From an uncultured Rhodospirillales bacterium (GTDB taxonomy: Bacteria > Pseudomonadota > Alphaproteobacteria > Acetobacterales > Acetobacteraceae), in assembly GCA_903835235.1 (NCBI GenBank), contig CAILMF010000044.1:62001-126000 (forward strand): a stretch of 64,000 bases of DNA, given 5' to 3'. Below the pieces are notes generated by a model. That model did no database searches, had not been told where the DNA came from, and saw nothing but the letters and a program-made list of their open reading frames with translations. Below are positions 32,729-41,167 of the stretch, one piece after another; positions within the stretch are counted from its first letter, which is position 1, and every line of letters begins with the position of its first letter. The position numbers and the translations under genes were made by a program.

Positions 32729-33250
32729 TCAGCCGCCCGGCAACTGCGGGATGCGGACGAACTGGCTGGTGTCGTAGCCCTGCGCCGCGAAGCGGGCGAG
32801 CAGTGACTGGTAGGTCGCCTCGTCCATCTGCGGCTGGCGGGACAGCACCCAGCCATAGCCACGGCCGGGGTAGCCCACCAGCGCGTGGCGGTATTCGGGG
32901 TCCACGTACAGGATGAGGTAGGAGAGGTAGAGCGGCCAGAACGGGCCTTCCCGCCAATACGCGTTGCCGGTGTTGGGCTTAACGTAGCCGCGCATGGTGA
33001 AGCTGGTCAGCGGCGCGTCCAGCGTGGCCTTGCGCGACCAGTAGATGTCGTCGAACCGGTCCGGCGCGGTGAAGCGGATCTCGAAGGAGGAGCCGACCTG
33101 GCCGGCTTCGGCGAAGTAGGGGATGTTGGCGATGATGTACCAGCGCCCGCTGTAGCGTTGCAGGTCCACGTTGGGGTGCAGCGCCTGGGGCGGGTCGTCG
33201 CCGGCGCAGGCGCCCAGCAGCAGCAGGCAGGTCAGCAGCAAGCGGCGCAT
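32729..33250 (-). CDS. blc: Outer-membrane lipocalin lipoprotein (Blc family)
   Basis: The 173-residue protein begins MRRLLLTCLLLLGAC, a lipoprotein signal with the acceptor Cys at 15. It has the lipocalin GxW box (VDLQRYSGRWYIIANIPYF), a barrel centre and GYGWVLSRQPQMDEATYQSLLARFAAQGYDTSQF, typical of bacterial Blc. Blc binds lysophospholipids or fatty acids and is linked to envelope stress. It is the last gene of the leftward ECF-sigma operon (11 bases after the DUF6134-like gene). That fits repair or transport of oxidised or modified lipids. Confidence 0.93.
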   Translation of the reverse strand: MRRLLLTCLLLLGACAGDDPPQALHPNVDLQRYSGRWYIIANIPYFAEAGQVGSSFEIRFTAPDRFDDIYWSRKATLDAPLTSFTMRGYVKPNTGNAYWREGPFWPLYLSYLILYVDPEYRHALVGYPGRGYGWVLSRQPQMDEATYQSLLARFAAQGYDTSQFVRIPQLPGG

Positions 33251-33261
33251 GGCGGCGTCCT

Positions 33262-33894
33262 TCAGGTACGGTGGTAGGTGATGGTGGAGCCGTCCTTGCC
33301 CGGGGCGCTCAGCGCGCACCAGGTATCCGCCTGGTCGTACCAGAGCTCCAACCGTGGCTCGCCGGTCAGGCTGAAGCGGCGGCAGGGGCGGGAGGTTCCG
33401 TCCGGCAGCGGCATTGGCGCCGGGCCGCTGCGGGCCACGCTGGGCCGGAACAGCTTGCCGTTCTGCGGGTTGACCATGGCGGCTTCGTGTTCGGCCGGGT
33501 TCCAATGCGTGGCCGGCAGCGCGCCGGGCGGTGCCACGTAGCGCGGCGCGTCCGAGCCTTCGATGACCAGGGCTTCCGCGTCGCGGCGGGCACGCATGAA
33601 GGCGGGGGTGCCGTTGTTGTCGGTGGTGAAGTCGGCCTGCATCACCTGGCTGCCGCGCCATTGCTCGGTGCCGCGCATGCGGTAGCGGAACAGCTTGATC
33701 GGGCCGATGCCGATGGCGATGTCGACCGCGATGCGGACCTCCAGGCTGTCCGGCCCGGGGGTGAACTCCAGCACATGGCTGCCGACCTCGCTGCCGTTGC
33801 GGAACACCTGGAAGGCCAGGCGGTTGCCGGCGGGCACCGCGGCGCGCGCCGTGCCGGCGGCGCAGGCCAGCAGCAGGGCGCGGCGGGCGATCAT
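33262..33894 (-). CDS. Exported protein of DUF6134-like family
   Basis: The 210-residue protein starts at ATG 33894, overlapping the methyltransferase stop by 4 bases, with a short signal peptide ending TARAA. The mature part alternates as beta strands: LAFQVFRNGSEVGSHVLEF, VRIAVDIAIGIGPIKLFRYRMRGTEQWRG and LELWYDQADTWCALSAPGKDGSTITYHRT. I connect it with DUF6134, periplasmic proteins often found beside cyclopropane-synthase operons, from memory and with moderate confidence. A beta-sheet lipid-binding or carrier role is plausible from the context only. Confidence 0.78.
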   Translation of the reverse strand: MIARRALLLACAAGTARAAVPAGNRLAFQVFRNGSEVGSHVLEFTPGPDSLEVRIAVDIAIGIGPIKLFRYRMRGTEQWRGSQVMQADFTTDNNGTPAFMRARRDAEALVIEGSDAPRYVAPPGALPATHWNPAEHEAAMVNPQNGKLFRPSVARSGPAPMPLPDGTSRPCRRFSLTGEPRLELWYDQADTWCALSAPGKDGSTITYHRT

Positions 33895-35096
33895 TCGGCG
33901 TGTTCCAGCTGCCACAGCCCGACATCCAGCGCCGCGGCGCGGAAGCCGGCTTCGCAATAGCAGAGGTAATAGGTCCACAGCCGGCGGAAGCGCGGCGGGA
34001 AGCCCATGGCGGCAATGCCGGGCCAGGCGGCCTCGAACCGGCGATGCCATTCGGCCAGGGTGCGGGCGTAGTCCTGGCCGAAATTCTGCTGTGCCACCAC
34101 GCGCAGCCCGGCCTGCGCCACCTGTTCGTGCATCACGCTGGGGGAGGGCAGCATGCCGCCGGGGAAGACGTAGCGCTGGATGAAGTCGGCGTTGCGGCGG
34201 TACTGCTGGAAGCGGTCGTCGGCGATGGTGATGACCTGCAACACCGCGCGTCCCCCCGGCTTCAGGCAGCGCTTCAACTGGGCGAAGTAGCTGGGCCAGT
34301 ATTCCTCGCCCACCGCTTCCAGCATCTCGATCGAGACGATGCGGTCGTGCTGGGCGGCCTCGTCGCGGTAGTCGCGCAGGTGCAGCTCGGCGGTGGTGCC
34401 GGCCAGGCGTTGCCGCGCCTTTTCCAGCTGTGCCGGGGAGAGGGTGAGGCCGGTGACCTGCGCGCCCGCCTGCACCAGGCGTTCCGCCAGCCCGCCCCAG
34501 CCGATGCCGATCTCCAGCACGCTGTCGCCTGGCGCCAGGCCCAGCAGTTCCAGAACGCGGTCCTGCTTGGCCGCCTGCGCCTGTTCCAGCGTCAGGTCGG
34601 CGCGCGGGTAGAGGGCGGAGGAGTAGCTCATGCCCGCATCCAGCCAGCGGGCGTAGAACTCGTTGCCGAGATCGTAATGCGCCTGGATGTTGCGCTTGCT
34701 GCCGCTGCGGGTATTGGCGCGCTTCAGGTGCAGCAGGCGGTGCACGCCGCGCATCAGCGCGGTGCCCTGCACCAGGTTGTCCAGGCTGTGGCTGTTGTGG
34801 GCGCCGAGTTCGATCAGCGCGGTCAGGTCCGGCGTATCCCAGTCGCCATCCATGTAGCTTTCGGCAAAGCCGACATCGCCGCCGAAGAACAGGCGGCGCA
34901 GGGTGCGCCAGCGATGCAGCGTTATCTCGGCTTCCGGCCCAGGCGTCTCGGCGCGGTGATGCAGCCGCACGCCCTCCGGCGTGTTGATGGCCAGGCTGCC
35001 GCAGCTGAGCGCGCCGCAGACCCGGCGGAGCAGGGCCGCCTGCATGCCGCCTGGCTGGCGCGTCGCCGTCAGGGGGGCGGTGACGTTCTGGCTCAT
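33891..35096 (-). CDS. Cyclopropane-fatty-acyl-phospholipid synthase family methyltransferase
   Basis: The 401-residue protein starts at ATG 35096, sharing one base with the DUF1365 stop. Class I SAM methyltransferase of the CFA family: FFGGDVGFAESYMDGDWDTPDL in the N-terminal part, KRNIQAHYDLGNEFYARWLDAGMSYSSALY, SAM motif DSVLEIGIGWGGLAERLV, RIVSIEMLEAVGEEYWPSYFAQLKRCLKPGG and a Tyr/Cys-rich end (WTYYLCYCEAGF). It adds a methyl(ene) group to double bonds of membrane phospholipid acyl chains. In the RpoE-ChrR context it may form cyclopropane or methylated (furan-precursor) fatty acids. Confidence 0.92.
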   Translation of the reverse strand: MSQNVTAPLTATRQPGGMQAALLRRVCGALSCGSLAINTPEGVRLHHRAETPGPEAEITLHRWRTLRRLFFGGDVGFAESYMDGDWDTPDLTALIELGAHNSHSLDNLVQGTALMRGVHRLLHLKRANTRSGSKRNIQAHYDLGNEFYARWLDAGMSYSSALYPRADLTLEQAQAAKQDRVLELLGLAPGDSVLEIGIGWGGLAERLVQAGAQVTGLTLSPAQLEKARQRLAGTTAELHLRDYRDEAAQHDRIVSIEMLEAVGEEYWPSYFAQLKRCLKPGGRAVLQVITIADDRFQQYRRNADFIQRYVFPGGMLPSPSVMHEQVAQAGLRVVAQQNFGQDYARTLAEWHRRFEAAWPGIAAMGFPPRFRRLWTYYLCYCEAGFRAAALDVGLWQLEHAE

Positions 35097-35866
35097 CAGG
35101 GCGTTCCGAGGCTGACGGGATGGGCCGGCGGTGCCGGGCGCGGATGCAGGGCCATGCCCTTGCGCCAGAGCTTCAGCGCTTCCCAATGGATGCCGCCCAG
35201 CACCTTCAGCGCCAGCAGCGGATGGGAGAGGAAGGCGCGCAGCAGGCCGGCATCGGTGAGCGCCTGGCGGTGGCCGGCGAAGGCGGCGAACAGCAGGGCG
35301 CCCTTGGCGTCGTGCACTTCCATGGCCAGGGAGACCGCTTCGCCCGGCGGCGCAACGCGGAAGTGGTAGGTCAGCGCCATGTCCATGAACGGGGACACGT
35401 AGAAATCCTTGGCGATGCGCTGGCGGATCACCGCCTGTTCGTCGGGCTTCACCGGGATCAGGTAGCTGTGGCGCTGGCCGAAGGTGTTGTTGACCTCGTA
35501 CAGCAGCGCCTGCGGCGTGCCGTCGGCGGCGTCGCAGAAGTAGACGGTGAGCGGGTTGAACACCATGCCGAGCAGGCGCGGCATGCACAGCACGCGGATG
35601 CGCCCGCCCGCCGGGTCCAGGCCGGCGGCGCGCAACTGCGCCTCCACCTGCTGGCGCAGCGGCGTGGCGCTGCCGTCGCCGTGGTCGGCCTCGCGGAATT
35701 CGAACAGCGCGCGACTGTTATGGCCGAACAGGCGCAGCCGCGCGTCCAGTGCGGGCAACTCGTCCAGGTCCAGCAGCAGGTTCAGCATGCGGTAGCGCAG
35801 CCGATGCCGCACCGGGCGGGTGCGGGCGTGCAGCACGGTGCCGGGATAGATCGCGGAGGCGGTCAT
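35096..35866 (-). CDS. DUF1365 family protein
   Basis: The 256-residue protein reads IYPGTVLHARTRPVRHRLRYRMLNLLLDLDELPALDARLRLFGHNSRALFEF, the defining DUF1365 start, with PRLLGMVFNPLTVYFC and VNNTFGQRHSYLIPV later. The family has no firm reaction but is almost always coded with a CFA-type methyltransferase and a flavoprotein, as here. It overlaps the flavoprotein gene by 4 bases and the CFA gene by 1 base, so equal production of all three is likely. A role in fatty-acid modification is supported by context. Confidence 0.93.
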   Translation of the reverse strand: MTASAIYPGTVLHARTRPVRHRLRYRMLNLLLDLDELPALDARLRLFGHNSRALFEFREADHGDGSATPLRQQVEAQLRAAGLDPAGGRIRVLCMPRLLGMVFNPLTVYFCDAADGTPQALLYEVNNTFGQRHSYLIPVKPDEQAVIRQRIAKDFYVSPFMDMALTYHFRVAPPGEAVSLAMEVHDAKGALLFAAFAGHRQALTDAGLLRAFLSHPLLALKVLGGIHWEALKLWRKGMALHPRPAPPAHPVSLGTP

Positions 35867-37176
35867 GCCGGCACCAGCTCCGGCCGCGGCGCGTGGATGC
35901 GGGGCGGCTGCGCCGGCATGGCCCAGGGGCGCCGCATGCCGCCCAGCTGCTCGGCCACGGCCAACCCGGCCTGCAACCCGTCCTCATGGAAGCCGGCGCC
36001 GAACCAGGCGCCGCAGAACCAGGTGCGGCGGGTACCCTGCAGGCTCCACAACGCGCGCTGGGCGCGGATGGCGGCGGCGTCGAATTGCGGGTGGGCCAAC
36101 GATTCCTCGTGCAGGGTTTCCGCCGGCGTCTCCTGCGGGTTCAGCGTGACGAAGTGCTGGCGCGGGTCGCGCAGCCCCATCAGGTGGTTCATCCAATAGG
36201 TCACGCACAGGCCGCCATCGGGCTGGCTCAGGTAGTTCCAGCTGGCCCAGGCGCGGCGGCGGCGCGGCATCAGCCCGGGGTCGCGGTGCAGCACCACCCG
36301 GTTGGGTGCGGTGCGGATGCTGCCCAGCAGGTTGGCCTCGGCGTCCGACGCATCCTCCAGCATCGCCAGGGCCTGCGGCGCGTGGCTGGCGATGACCACC
36401 TCGTCGTAGCGCGCGGTCTCGCCACTGGTGTCGCGCAGCAGCACGTGATCGGCGTGGCGGGTCAGGCCGACCACGCCGCAGCCCAGGCGGATATTGTGGG
36501 CGTAGGGCGCGGTGAGCTTTTCGATATAGGCGCTGCTGCCGCCCACCACGGTGCGCCACACCGGGCGGTTGGTCAGTTGCAGCAGGCCGTGATTCTCGCA
36601 GAAACGGATGAAGGCGGTGGCGGGATAGGCGCCGACCTCGGCGGCGGGCGTGGACCAGATGGCGGCGGCCATCGGCAGCAGGTGGTCCTGCACGAAGCCG
36701 GCGCCATGGCCGCGGCCGCGCAGATAGGCGTCCAGGCTGATCAGGTCGCGTTCCAGCGCCGGGGCGTCCTTGGGGGCTTCGCGGTAGAAGCGCAGCAGGT
36801 CCCGCAGCATGCCCCAGAAGCGCGGGCTGAGCGCGTTGGACGGCTGCGCGAACAACCCGGCCAGGTTGGTGCCGGCATATTCGCGCGCGCCCCCGTTCAG
36901 GGAGGCGGCGAAGGACATGTCGGAGGCGCGGGTTTCCACGCCCAGGTGGCGGAACAGCGCAACCAGGTTGGGGTAGGTGGCCTCGTTGTAGACGATGAAG
37001 CCGATGTCGACCGGCCCCACGCCGGGCACTGCCACGCTGCGGGTATGGCCGCCCAGGCGTGGCGCGGCCTCGTACAGCACCACCTCATGCCGCTGCGCCA
37101 GCAGCCAGGCGGCGGACATGCCGGAGATGCCACTGCCGATGACGGCGATGCGCTTCGCTCTCGCGTCGTGGTGCAT
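35863..37176 (-). CDS. FAD-dependent amine-oxidase-like flavoprotein of the CFA/DUF1365 operon
   Basis: The 437-residue protein starts at ATG 37176, five bases after GGGAG. It has an N-terminal FAD site (RIAVIGSGISGMSAAWLLAQRHEVVLYEA, then RLGGHTRSV) and the family blocks DIGFIVYNEATYPNLVALFRHLGVE and WNYLSQPDGGLCVTYWMNHLMGL. This COG2907-type flavoprotein accompanies DUF1365 and CFA synthase in sigma-E regulons of alphaproteobacteria. In Rhodobacter sphaeroides furan fatty acid synthesis a methyltransferase and a desaturase act on vaccenate; this flavoprotein is a candidate for a desaturation step, by inference. It is the first gene of the leftward operon from the divergent ECF promoter region. 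Confidence 0.9.
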   Translation of the reverse strand: MHHDARAKRIAVIGSGISGMSAAWLLAQRHEVVLYEAAPRLGGHTRSVAVPGVGPVDIGFIVYNEATYPNLVALFRHLGVETRASDMSFAASLNGGAREYAGTNLAGLFAQPSNALSPRFWGMLRDLLRFYREAPKDAPALERDLISLDAYLRGRGHGAGFVQDHLLPMAAAIWSTPAAEVGAYPATAFIRFCENHGLLQLTNRPVWRTVVGGSSAYIEKLTAPYAHNIRLGCGVVGLTRHADHVLLRDTSGETARYDEVVIASHAPQALAMLEDASDAEANLLGSIRTAPNRVVLHRDPGLMPRRRRAWASWNYLSQPDGGLCVTYWMNHLMGLRDPRQHFVTLNPQETPAETLHEESLAHPQFDAAAIRAQRALWSLQGTRRTWFCGAWFGAGFHEDGLQAGLAVAEQLGGMRRPWAMPAQPPRIHAPRPELVPA

Positions 37177-37216
37177 GAAATCTCCCGCCCTTCGCCCCTT
37201 GCGGGCTAACATTCCC

Positions 37217-37244
37217 TGAACGGACGGTACAAGCGATTGGATCA
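37217..37244 (-). promoter_or_regulatory. Candidate RpoE (ECF) promoter for the leftward lipid-modification operon
   Basis: On the minus strand, TGATCC (37244-37239), 16 bases, then CGTTCA (37222-37217). The transcript would start near 37210 and reach the ATG at 37176 with a GGGAG site. TGATCC is the known -35 type of RpoE promoters in ChrR systems. The same -35 and -10 words with the same spacing occur on the other strand facing rpoE. Confidence 0.68.
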
Positions 37245-37258
37245 CTCCGGTTTGTTGG

Positions 37259-37286
37259 TGATCCAAACCGCGCGGCCGTCCGTTGA
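37259..37286 (+). promoter_or_regulatory. Candidate autoregulatory RpoE (ECF) promoter for rpoE-chrR operon
   Basis: TGATCC at 37259-37264, 16 bases, then CGTTGA at 37281-37286. The flanking CCGTC before the CGTT is shared with the divergent promoter. A transcript would start near 37293. That is compatible with the GTG start at 37354 (about 60-base leader) or near-leaderless use of ATG 37294; it rules out the longer frame opening at 37237. Confidence 0.68.
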
Positions 37287-37353
37287 AGGGGTCATGCATG
37301 CAGTGCTCGACATGCCGCGTCCCGCGGCCCGGCAACAGCGAGAGGCGAGGGCG

Positions 37354-37911
37354 GTGACGCCGGATGATGCGGCCGAGGAAGCCGCCGGCTGGCTGCGCGC
37401 CATCGCCGAGCATGGCGACCGCGTGGCCTTTGTGGCGCTGTATGGCCGCTTCGCGCCGCGGGTAAAGGCGTATCTGCTGCGCTTGGCCCTGCCGCCGGCC
37501 CAGGCCGAGGAGCTGACCCAGGAGGCCATGCTGGCGGTGTGGCGCAAGGCCGCGCAGTTCGATGCCCGCACCTCAGGCGCCGCGGCCTGGATCTTCACCA
37601 TCGCGCGGAACCTGCGGGTGGACGCCGCCCGCCGCGCCGCGCTGGCGGTGCCGGAAGACATGCCGCCGGATGAGCTGGAGCCGACGATGCCGGCCGATGC
37701 GCAACTTGACGACGCGCGCCGTGCCGACCGCCTGCGGCAGGCGATGCAGACCCTGCCCCCCGAACAGGCCGAGGTGGTTCGGCTTGCCTTCTTCGACGAC
37801 CGTCCACATGCGGAGATCGAGCGTCGGCTCGGCATTCCGCTCGGCACGGTGAAGTCCCGCCTGCGCCTGGCGATGGTGCGGCTGCGGGCCCAGTTGGACG
37901 CGTTCAAATGA
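37354..37911 (+). CDS. rpoE: ECF sigma factor RpoE of the ChrR (singlet-oxygen) type
   Basis: The 185-residue protein has sigma region 2 (VAFVALYGRFAPRVKAYLLRL, EELTQEAMLAVWRKAAQFDAR, AWIFTIARNLRVDAARR) and region 4 (AMQTLPPEQAEVVRLAFFDDRPHAEIERRLGIPLGTVKSRLRLAMVRLR). I chose GTG 37354 because AGAGG/GAGG lie just upstream, the length suits RpoE, and it lies after the predicted promoter; ATG 37294 is the main alternative. The next gene is a ChrR anti-sigma with an ATGA overlap, which identifies this as the singlet-oxygen responsive group. It should drive both divergent operons in this island. Confidence 0.92.
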   Translation: MTPDDAAEEAAGWLRAIAEHGDRVAFVALYGRFAPRVKAYLLRLALPPAQAEELTQEAMLAVWRKAAQFDARTSGAAAWIFTIARNLRVDAARRAALAVPEDMPPDELEPTMPADAQLDDARRADRLRQAMQTLPPEQAEVVRLAFFDDRPHAEIERRLGIPLGTVKSRLRLAMVRLRAQLDAFK

Positions 37912-38525
37912 CCCATCATCCTTCCGCGGCGACCCTGCTTGCCTATGCCGCCGGCCGGCTGCCGGTGGCGCATGGCATCGTGGTGCGCACCCACCTGGCG
38001 CTGTGCGCGGAGTGCCGCGCCGAGGCTGCGCTGGCCGCGGCGATCGGCGGCGAGATGCTGGCGGAGCTGCCGCCGGCCGCGCTGGCGGCGGATTCCCTGG
38101 CCAAGGTACTGGGCCGGCTGGACGAGGCCGCCCCGCCCGCGCCGCCCGCGCGCCCGGTGCCGACAACGGTGGAGCAACTCGCCACCGGGCGCTGGTGGTG
38201 GATCGGCCCGGGCATGCGGCTGATGCCGCTGATGCGGCGCGGTGCCGACAATGTCCGGCTTGATCTCATCAAGGTGGCGCCCGGCGTGCGGCTGCCCGGC
38301 CATGGCCATACCGGCACCGAGCTGACCTGCGTGCTGCGCGGTGCCTTCGGCGACGAGACCGGTGAATACCACGCCGGCGACTTCGCCGAGGGCGAGCCGG
38401 GGCTGGAGCATGAGCCGATGGCGCTGCCGGTGGGCCAGGACTGCGTCTGCCTGATCGCCACCGAGGGCCGGCTGCGCGCGCATAGCTGGGTGGCGCGCCT
38501 GGTGCAGCCGCTGGTGGGAGTCTAG
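37908..38525 (+). CDS. chrR: ChrR-type zinc anti-sigma factor with cupin domain
   Basis: The 205-residue protein has an N-terminal anti-sigma domain with zinc ligands His 4, His 29, Cys 33 and Cys 36 (THLALCAEC). The 25-residue spacing between the two His is the same as in Rhodobacter sphaeroides ChrR (His 6, His 31, Cys 35, Cys 38). The C-terminal cupin-like domain has LPGHGHTGTELTCVLRGAF and FAEGEPGLEHEP, supplying the His/Glu metal site needed for the singlet-oxygen response. It holds RpoE inactive until singlet oxygen or related stress triggers release. It is coupled to rpoE by a 4-base overlap. Confidence 0.95.
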   Translation: MTHHPSAATLLAYAAGRLPVAHGIVVRTHLALCAECRAEAALAAAIGGEMLAELPPAALAADSLAKVLGRLDEAAPPAPPARPVPTTVEQLATGRWWWIGPGMRLMPLMRRGADNVRLDLIKVAPGVRLPGHGHTGTELTCVLRGAFGDETGEYHAGDFAEGEPGLEHEPMALPVGQDCVCLIATEGRLRAHSWVARLVQPLVGV

Positions 38526-38526
38526 C

Positions 38527-39378
38527 GTGGCGCGCCGTGCGGTGCTGGGCTCGCTGGGGGCGTTGCTGGCCTCGGCCTGCGCGCCGACCACGCTGCTGAA
38601 CGCGGTGGCGCCGCGCGGCGGCGTGGTGACGGCCAGCGCAAGCTACGCCGAAGGCCCGCGCCATGGCGTGGACGTATATGCGCCGGCGGGGGCGCACCAG
38701 GCGCCGGTGGTGGTGTTCATCTATGGCGGCGGCTGGCGCGCCGGCGACCGCGGCATGTATCGCTTCCTCGGCGCCACGCTGGCGGCGGCGGGCCTAGTCT
38801 GCGTGGTGCCGGATTATCGGGTCTGGCCGGAAGTGCGCTCGCCCGCCTTCGTGCAGGATGCGGCGCAGGCGGTGGGCTGGGCGCGGGCGCATGCGGCCGA
38901 GCATGGCGGGGACCCTGGCCGGCTGTTCCTGATGGGCCACAGTGCCGGCGCGCAGATCGCGGCGCTGCTGGCGCTGAACCCGGCCTGGCTGGGTGCGGTC
39001 GGCATGCAGCCGGGGCGCGACATCCGCGGCGTGGTCGGGCTGGCCGGCCCCTACGATTTCCTGCCGCTGCAAAGCGACACGCTGAAGGAGATCTTCGGGC
39101 CGGAGGAGCAGCGCCCGGCCTCGCAGCCGATCAACTTCGTCACCCCGGGCGCGCCGCCGATGCTGCTGGCCACCGGCAGCGACGACACCACCGTGCTGCC
39201 GCGCAACTCCACGCGCCTGGCGGCGAAGCTGCGTGAGGCCGGCAATAAGGCCGAGCTGATCATCTACCCCGGCGTCGGCCACGCCACCATCATGGGCGCC
39301 TTCAGCGCGCCGCTCGGCTTCATCGCCCCGGTGCGGCAGGACGTGCTGCGCTTCATCACCCAACGGAGCCAGGCATGA
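38527..39378 (+). CDS. Alpha/beta-hydrolase lipoprotein (carboxylesterase/HSL-like)
   Basis: The 283-residue protein begins at GTG 38527, two bases after the chrR stop. The N-terminus ARRAVLGSLGALLASACAP carries a lipobox with Cys near 18. The core shows VVVFIYGGGWRAGDRGMYRFLG (oxyanion), FLMGHSAGAQIAALLAL (nucleophile Ser), Asp in ATGSDDTTV and His in PGVGHATIMG. This is the esterase/lipase type that cleaves short esters. In the sigma-E operon it may release oxidised acyl chains in the envelope; that is inference from its neighbours. Confidence 0.9.
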   Translation: MARRAVLGSLGALLASACAPTTLLNAVAPRGGVVTASASYAEGPRHGVDVYAPAGAHQAPVVVFIYGGGWRAGDRGMYRFLGATLAAAGLVCVVPDYRVWPEVRSPAFVQDAAQAVGWARAHAAEHGGDPGRLFLMGHSAGAQIAALLALNPAWLGAVGMQPGRDIRGVVGLAGPYDFLPLQSDTLKEIFGPEEQRPASQPINFVTPGAPPMLLATGSDDTTVLPRNSTRLAAKLREAGNKAELIIYPGVGHATIMGAFSAPLGFIAPVRQDVLRFITQRSQA

Positions 39379-40145
39379 GCATCCCGATCCTCGCGGCGCT
39401 GGCGCTGTTCCCGGCCATGGCGGGGGCCTGGTGGCTGCAACGTCGCAGCATGAACGCCGGCTGGGTGGATGTGGTCTGGACCTTCTCGCTGGGCCTGGCC
39501 GGGGTGGTGGCGGTGCTGGCCACCGGCGAAGGCGCGCGGGCCTGGCTGGTGGCGGCGCTGGTCGCGGCCTGGGCGCTCAGGCTCGGCCTCTACATCCTCG
39601 GCCGCACGCGGGGCGGGCCGGAGGATGCGCGCTACAACCACTTCCGCCGGGAATGGGGCGCGGCGTTCCAGCAACGCATGTTCGGCTTCCTGATGATCCA
39701 GGCCGCCGCCGCCGCGCTGCTGATGTTGCCGATGGTGCTGGCCGCCGCCTCTCCGCGCCCCTTGGGCTGGCCGGATGCGCTGGCGGTGCTGGTGCTGGTG
39801 GTGGCGGTGGTGGGAGAGGGCGTGGCCGATGCGCAGCTCGGCCGCTTCCGCGCCAACCCGGCCAACCATGGCAAGGTCTGCGATGCCGGGCTGTGGGCCT
39901 GGTCGCGCCACCCCAACTACTTCTTCGAATGGCTGCACTGGCTGGCCTATCCGCTCTTCGCGCTGGGCGCTGATTACGGCTGGCTGGCGTTGCTGGGGCC
40001 GGCCTTCATGTACTGGCTGCTCGTCCATGTCTCCGGCATTCCGCCGTTGGAAGCGCAGATGCTGCGCAGCCGGGGCGAGGCCTATGCCGCCTATCAGCGG
40101 CGCGTCAGCGCCTTCCTCCCTCTGCCGAGTGGAACCACGCCATGA
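39375..40145 (+). CDS. DUF1295 family membrane protein (steroid 5-alpha-reductase-like)
   Basis: The 256-residue protein has about six membrane helices. DUF1295 signatures are present: MNAGWVDVVWTFSLGLAGV, RYNHFRREWGAAFQQRMFGFLMIQ, KVCDAGLWAWSRHPNYFFEWLHWLAYPLFAL and SRGEAYAAYQRRVSAFLP. The fold is that of NADPH-dependent sterol/fatty-acid double-bond reductases and isoprenylcysteine methyltransferases. It overlaps the genes on both sides by 4 bases. A job in reducing or modifying unsaturated acyl chains beside the methyltransferases is plausible but unproved. Confidence 0.92.
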   Translation: MSIPILAALALFPAMAGAWWLQRRSMNAGWVDVVWTFSLGLAGVVAVLATGEGARAWLVAALVAAWALRLGLYILGRTRGGPEDARYNHFRREWGAAFQQRMFGFLMIQAAAAALLMLPMVLAAASPRPLGWPDALAVLVLVVAVVGEGVADAQLGRFRANPANHGKVCDAGLWAWSRHPNYFFEWLHWLAYPLFALGADYGWLALLGPAFMYWLLVHVSGIPPLEAQMLRSRGEAYAAYQRRVSAFLPLPSGTTP

Positions 40146-41167
40146 ACCTCGTCGCTGCCGCCACCAGCGCGGTTGAACGCCTGCCGATACCCGACAGCGT
40201 CATGCGCGCCGGCATCTCCGCGCTGGTCGGCCGCACCAGCCGCAAGCTGGCGCATACGCCGGTGGGCGCCGAGCTGGCCTTTGCCGAGGCGATGCGCAGC
40301 CACCCGATCGCGCTGTTCCCGGAAGACGCCAACGCGCAGCACTACGAACTGCCGGCGGCCTTCTTCAGCCAGGCGCTGGGGCCGCGGCGCAAGTATTCCT
40401 GCTGCCTCTACCCCAGCGCGACTACGACGCTGGCCGAAGCCGAGGAATTCGCCCTGGCCGAGACCGCCGCCCATGCCGCGCTGGCCGATGGCCAGGCCAT
40501 TCTGGAGCTCGGCTGCGGCTGGGGCTCGCTGTCGCTCTGGATGGCCGAGCACTACCCGGCGGCGCGGATCACCGCGGTCTCCAACTCGGCGCCGCAGCGC
40601 GAGTATATCGAGGTGCAGGCGGCGCGGCGCGGGCTGCTGAACCTGACCGTCGTCACCGCCGACATGAACGTCTTCGACACCGAGGCGCGTTTCGACCGCG
40701 TGGTCTCGGTGGAGATGTTCGAGCACATGTCCAACTGGCCGGCGCTGCTGGGGCGGATCGACCGCTGGCTGCTGCCGGAAGGGCGGCTGTTCCTGCACGT
40801 GTTCAGCCACCAGGCGACGCCCTATCGGTTCGACCACGCCGACAAGGCGGACTGGATCGCGCAGCACTTCTTCACCGGCGGGATCATGCCCAGCCACAAC
40901 CTGATCCGGCACGTCGCGGCGCCCTTCACGCTGGAGGCGGATTGGCGCTGGTCCGGCACGCATTATGCCCGCACCGCCGACCACTGGCTGGCGAATTACG
41001 ATGCGCGGGCCGCGGCGATCGAGCCGATCCTGCGGCAGACCTATGGCCGGGACTGGCAGTTGTGGCAGCGCCGCTGGCGGCTGTTCTTCCTGGCCACGGC
41101 GGGGCTGTTCGGCGCCATGGGCGGCGCCGAATGGGGTGTCAGCCACTATCGCCTGAAGCGCCCGTGA
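40142..41167 (+). CDS. CFA-family SAM-dependent methyltransferase (second copy in the island)
   Basis: The 341-residue protein is shorter than the CFA synthase at 33891 and not closely similar by eye. It has QHYELPAAFFSQALGPRRKYSCCLYPSATTTLAEAEEFALAETAAHA, SAM motif ILELGCGWGSLSLWMAEHYPAARI, FDRVVSVEMFEHMSNWPALLGRID and FFTGGIMPSHNLI, all typical of the CFA superfamily. It is the last gene of the rpoE operon. Having a distinct CFA-like enzyme in each arm suggests two methyl transfers or two substrates. Confidence 0.9.
   Translation: MNLVAAATSAVERLPIPDSVMRAGISALVGRTSRKLAHTPVGAELAFAEAMRSHPIALFPEDANAQHYELPAAFFSQALGPRRKYSCCLYPSATTTLAEAEEFALAETAAHAALADGQAILELGCGWGSLSLWMAEHYPAARITAVSNSAPQREYIEVQAARRGLLNLTVVTADMNVFDTEARFDRVVSVEMFEHMSNWPALLGRIDRWLLPEGRLFLHVFSHQATPYRFDHADKADWIAQHFFTGGIMPSHNLIRHVAAPFTLEADWRWSGTHYARTADHWLANYDARAAAIEPILRQTYGRDWQLWQRRWRLFFLATAGLFGAMGGAEWGVSHYRLKRP

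Follow-up and report, generated by a model that had tools for sequence, protein, structure and literature searches.

A divergent ECF11-type promoter pair in an RpoE-ChrR island in which the fourth -10 base appears to have changed together with sigma residue 73

The region upstream of rpoE in an uncultured member of the Acetobacteraceae very probably holds a divergent, autoregulated pair of ECF11 (RpoE-ChrR) promoters, in which the fourth base of the -10 element has changed from A to T together with residue 73 in the L3 loop of the sigma factor. The DNA analysed was a stretch of 64 kb, here called the window, on contig 44 of genome G000 (5.97 Mb), and the pair is located at positions 37177-37353 of this stretch.

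The promoter pair and the operons it faces

We found that the minus-strand site reads TGATCC AATCGCTTGTACCGTC CGTTCA and the plus-strand site TGATCC AAACCGCGCGGCCGTC CGTTGA, which is exactly the TGATCC, 16 bases and CGTT(C/G)A that the first-pass annotation had placed on both strands (Table 1). It had also described one promoter as facing the operon of the flavoprotein, DUF1365, CFA, DUF6134 and lipocalin genes and the other as facing rpoE-chrR-hydrolase-DUF1295-CFA. Deep conservation bears this out, as does the published arrangement in Rhodobacter sphaeroides, where an RpoE promoter precedes RSP_1091-1087 and also rpoE-chrR (PMC3818230), so that the divergent arrangement as such is known biology.

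Table 1. Genes and promoter elements of the island, with positions in the window
Feature	Position	Strand	Basis
Blc-type lipocalin	32729..33250	-	NF007786, E 3e-19, under curated cutoff
DUF6134 protein	33262..33894	-	domain
CFA-type methyltransferase, UfaM position	33891..35096	-	domain matches
DUF1365 protein, UfaO (RSP_1090) position	35096..35866	-	domain; R. palustris/R. sphaeroides gene order
FAD-dependent desaturase-like protein, UfaD (RSP_1091) position and type	35863..37176	-	domains; R. palustris RPA2571-2569 order
ECF11-type promoter, ufaD operon	37219..37244	-	TGATCC-N16-CGTT; -35 37239-37244, -10 CGTT 37219-37222; kept in relatives
ECF11-type promoter, rpoE-chrR operon	37259..37284	+	TGATCC-N16-CGTT; -35 37259-37264, -10 CGTT 37281-37284; kept in relatives
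rpoE, ECF sigma, RpoE-ChrR (ECF11) type	37354..37911	+	Pfam sigma70 r2/r4; L3-loop T73 (most relatives R/K/Q)
chrR, zinc anti-sigma factor	37908..38525	+	TIGR02451, 178 bits vs cutoff 124.5
Alpha/beta hydrolase (esterase/lipase fold)	38527..39378	+	kept in L036, L038, L041, L042
DUF1295 membrane protein	39375..40145	+	conserved in relatives
Second CFA-type SAM-dependent fatty-acyl methyltransferase	40142..41167	+	~30% identity to first CFA

The rightward operon begins with an ECF sigma factor that has regions 2 and 4 and whose nearest solved structure is R. sphaeroides RpoE (2Q1Z, E 8.9e-36); its GTG start is supported by close relatives, which have ATG at the same place. The adjacent ChrR carries the HxxxCxxC signature as the ZAS motif HLALCAEC (H29/C33/C36), with the zinc ligands shared with R. 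sphaeroides, and cupin metal ligands at H132, H134, E138 and H168. In the leftward operon a UfaD-type flavoprotein, a DUF1365 protein and a CFA-type methyltransferase in the UfaM position follow one another, UfaO being a DUF1365 protein, and the gene order is that of ufaD-ufaO-ufaM in Rhodopseudomonas palustris (RPA2571-2569). We refer to this operon as ufaDOM-like on the basis of domain type and order, rather than of a one-to-one protein comparison with R. sphaeroides.

The published ECF11 motif is TGATCC-N16-CGTA, and the promoters of Pseudomonas syringae PSPTO_1043 and Shewanella RpoE2 share TGATCC and the 16-base spacing with the window but have CGTA where the window has CGTT (PMC5507510, PMC4336711). 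The earlier reading of TGATCC as the -35 of RpoE/ChrR systems is thus the word of the published motif, and it is found ahead of rpoE at the expected spacing. The -10 is CGTT on both strands and CGTA in most relatives, and for this reason the system is filed here as a variant of ECF11, a family whose definition rests on its sigma and anti-sigma proteins. The suggestion that CGTT might be specific to the lineage held true, the wider family having CGTA; it is a one-base variant of a known -10 and not an unknown element.

With a CGTT -10, both promoters might also be read by EcfG, the general stress sigma, which itself uses CGTT as its -10; the EcfG -35, GGAAC, is nevertheless absent at the window sites, and TGATCC is retained in the window and in relatives. 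Although E. coli RpoE fitted with the L3 loop of EcfG shifts to the base that EcfG prefers (PMC8103513), we consider the assignment to EcfG very improbable and treat the sites as ECF11-type promoters.

Conservation across relatives

Among named relatives, Acetobacteraceae MAGs and Neoroseomonas soli stand closest to the window genome. We collected sigma homologues together with their upstream DNA, starting within the family and widening to the class, which gave 183 rpoE upstream regions. These contain 206 copies of TGATCC-N16-CGT, 124 of them on the sense strand and 82 on the divergent strand, while other spacings from 8 to 24 reach at most 7 per strand and at most 13 overall. The comparison across related genomes, one of the checks proposed earlier, shows both elements kept, with the spacing fixed at 16, in Acetobacteraceae and in other Alphaproteobacteria. 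At the fourth -10 position of the 206 sites we found A in 178 cases, T in 25 and C in 3. The T sites belong to the clade of the window, where this base is T and sometimes C, and to two genomes outside that clade (L102 and L111).

The genes are conserved as well. The divergent neighbour of rpoE is a UfaD-type flavoprotein in most Acetobacteraceae, and L036 and L038 carry the ten genes of the island in the same order, as L041 nearly does, with 9 of the 10 genes matched and no lipocalin. In the other relatives the island is collinear up to the contig ends, save L040 with the hydrolase unmatched.

Within a pair the fourth base can differ between the two promoters, as can be seen in genus g33 (L011, L051, L052, L054), where the rpoE promoter has CGTC and the divergent promoter CGTT. 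Three further relatives (L010, L053, L056) are mixed, with one CGTT or CGTC promoter and one CGTA promoter. The CCGTC immediately 5' of CGTT, which the first-pass annotation had listed as a shared feature, is indeed present at both window sites, but it is not conserved among relatives and was rejected as a promoter element; inside the CGTT clade there is no more than a slight preference for C-[AG]-T-[CT].

In the window the TGATCC arms are perfectly symmetrical over 9 bp (TTGGATCAC-N12-GTGATCCAA), and they could in principle be an inverted-repeat operator for a DNA-binding regulator instead of two promoters. In relatives, however, the TGATCC-TGATCC distance varies from 2 to more than 100 bases with no significant helical phasing of the two -35 boxes (p 0.18 on distinct gap values), several relatives have one of the two sites only, and by far the commonest distance between a TGATCC and the CGT that belongs to it is 16 bases. 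An operator is hardly to be expected on these grounds, and we retain the reading as two promoters; the common gap of 13-14 bases between the -35 boxes likely reflects ancestry.

Occurrence of the motif in the window and the genome

TGATCC-N15-17-CGTT has two matches in the 64-kb window, which are the promoter pair only; shuffled windows gave a mean of 0.21 matches, with two or more in 3 of 100 shuffles. The exact TGATCC-N16-CGTT was found five times in the 6 Mb of the genome (reversed control 0), against roughly five matches that we estimate to arise by chance at about 70% GC, so the word alone is unenriched, and it is position and conservation that carry the argument. L001 and L005 fall within genes. 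L004 (G000 C45:69442-69467) lies about 70-90 bases 5' of the ATG of a CrtI/phytoene-desaturase-like gene and is probably a chance match, because the site showed no conservation among the three congeners examined. Carotenoids quench singlet oxygen, which is noted here beside the position of L004 upstream of a CrtI-like gene.

A wider regulon defined by TGATCC-N16-CGTT was rejected, with L001 and L005 intragenic and L004 unconserved, and the expectation that a genome scan would place the motif ahead of stress genes found no support, the five matches including no conserved target beyond the island. In a scan of the three congeners the island pair was the only recurring CGTT-type target (imperfect -35 sites would escape). 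It thus appears to be the sole conserved CGTT-type target pair of the genus, and stress genes elsewhere were not found via the motif. TGATCC-N16-CGTA also has five matches in the same genome, three of which (L045, L047, L048) belong to one dispersed repeat, TGATCC[GT]CGAAGGCG[GA]AATCGCCGTAGCGGTGAATCAGTCTCTCAG.

Sigma residue 73 and the fourth -10 base

In solved ECF complexes the fourth -10 base, the 'master nucleotide', is flipped into a pocket of the L3 (specificity) loop, swaps of this loop redirect specificity at the flipped base, and in Mycobacterium tuberculosis sigma H, which reads GTT, residues T76 and N77 of the loop contact the flipped T (PMC6411747, PMC6372665, PMC8103513). Since the flipped base is read by the L3 loop, we scanned every column of the sigma alignment in 137 genomes, none chosen in advance. 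The column of T73 alone separates T/C from A promoters perfectly (MI 0.541, equal to H(y)), and the next-best column reaches an MI of 0.327, or 60% of the information of T73. Residue 73 is located in the L3 loop, six residues before its conserved Trp. It is R, K, Q, L, M or C with A promoters and T, S, G, F or I with T/C promoters; sigmas of the former group have CGTA at 168 of 168 sites, and those of the latter CGTT or CGTC at 29 of 32. The helix motif DAARR was tried as a specificity determinant and ruled out, because L012 carries DAARR and yet has CGTA.

Later samples came from a phylum-wide search, a genus search and further regions, and were gathered with the association already in mind. 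Here a third lineage (L237, L240, L241) combines T73 with CGTT ahead of rpoE, and L264, an added member of the clade of the window, has Ala at residue 73 and CGTT on both sides. Further R and K sigmas again have CGTA, except for one distant K site at -372. Partial exceptions to the residue rule are L292 (T) and L243 (V), both with CGTA, for which only a divergent-strand site was found. The mixed relatives L010, L053 and L056 also depart from it, each retaining one CGTA. Two phylum-level genomes (L233, L234) have His at the L3 position, a TGATCT -35 and CGTA ahead of rpoE.

A tree was built with the L3 loop masked. It places just three changes of the base, a small number of independent events, and five of the residue, and all three base changes lie inside lineages with a changed residue, one of these events (16 rows) having a modest support of 81. 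Sigma and promoters thus appear to have changed together, from A to T. The association of residue and base across three lineages is the result; the role of residue 73 as its cause is a prediction.

The data can also be read as an ordinary ECF11 pair whose fourth -10 base drifted while the specificity of the sigma stayed as it was, the residue-base link reflecting shared ancestry only. One clade supplies most of the CGTT sites, the mixed relatives carry CGTT beside CGTA, and a test on independent row pairs has too few pairs for significance, all of which would suit drift. It sits poorly with the invariant A of the R/K/Q/L/M/C lineages and with three separate base changes that all fall within changed-residue lineages, and the one sigma column with perfect separation belongs to the very loop that reads the base. 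Drift is therefore in our view unlikely, and a joint change of sigma and promoters is preferred. The mixed pairs of L010, L053 and L056 suggest in turn that specificity was relaxed en route. We give even chances to a fuller account, in which the sigma went over from A to T as its master nucleotide through a relaxed intermediate and became largely orthogonal to CGTA-type ECF11, the key step being that the L3 loop lost its long side chain (R/K/Q at 73), which happened at least three times.

Genome G1155 encodes two ECF11 sigmas, L262 and L284, which differ in their L3 residue (T and R). CGTA accompanies the R-type sigma, and no promoter was found for the T-type sigma of this genome; the two are a possible natural orthogonal pair.

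Proposed mechanism and relation to known systems

In R. sphaeroides UfaD and UfaO (RSP_1091/1090) are required for ChrR turnover under singlet oxygen (PMC3818230; PMC7380195; reviewed in PMC6852236), and UfaD, UfaO and UfaM form a furan fatty acid pathway (PMC7380195). By analogy we infer that singlet oxygen or peroxide stress would remove the anti-sigma factor ChrR and free RpoE, which would then read T in both -10 elements and fire both promoters in opposite directions. Rightward transcription would supply more RpoE and ChrR together with the hydrolase, DUF1295 and the second CFA-type methyltransferase, and leftward transcription the UfaD-UfaO-UfaM-like furan-fatty-acid enzymes, DUF6134 and the lipocalin. 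As UfaD and UfaO promote ChrR turnover in R. sphaeroides, the lipid enzymes may help to remove ChrR, and the pair would close a positive loop, acting as a compact switch that controls about ten genes in both directions. In both promoters the fourth -10 base would have gone from A to T as the long side chain (R/K/Q) at residue 73 gave way to a small or branched one (T73).

The closest known counterpart, the RpoE-ChrR/RSP_1091-1087 system of R. sphaeroides, agrees with the window in that rpoE-chrR adjoins the ufaD-ufaO operon with RpoE promoters on both. Unlike there, the leftward operon of the window continues with the ufaM-like gene, DUF6134 and the lipocalin, and the rpoE operon adds the hydrolase, DUF1295 and the second CFA methyltransferase. 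The R. sphaeroides sigma has Arg at the L3 position (FDPSRASVATW), whereas the window sigma has Thr, with CGTT.

ECF sigmas are stringent about one flipped base, which raises the question of how a sigma factor and all its promoters can shift their code jointly. A general code that relates residues of ECF sigmas to bases of their promoters was reportedly published by Todor in 2020 (cited in PMC8103513), so that the principle is not new. In the work on the L3 loop and the master nucleotide (Campagne; PMC6372665; PMC6411747; Todor 2020) it is the loop that sets the accepted flipped -10 base. In the parts of these studies available to us the changes are engineered or lie between families; CGTT for CGTA in ECF11 is, judged from the sequences compared here, a change that arose naturally inside a single ECF family, some relatives being in mixed states. 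A literature search did not find CGTT in an ECF11 system, which is weak evidence, since most subscription papers lay outside the search. As the conserved target set of the genus is apparently two back-to-back promoters, the code change is easy to trace, and relatives preserve both end states besides the mixed ones. The island thereby offers a one-residue, one-base prediction and what appears to be a natural example of the rewiring of a gene switch. A FufM-like role (dimethyl furan fatty acids) is possible for the second CFA-type methyltransferase, located beside DUF1295.
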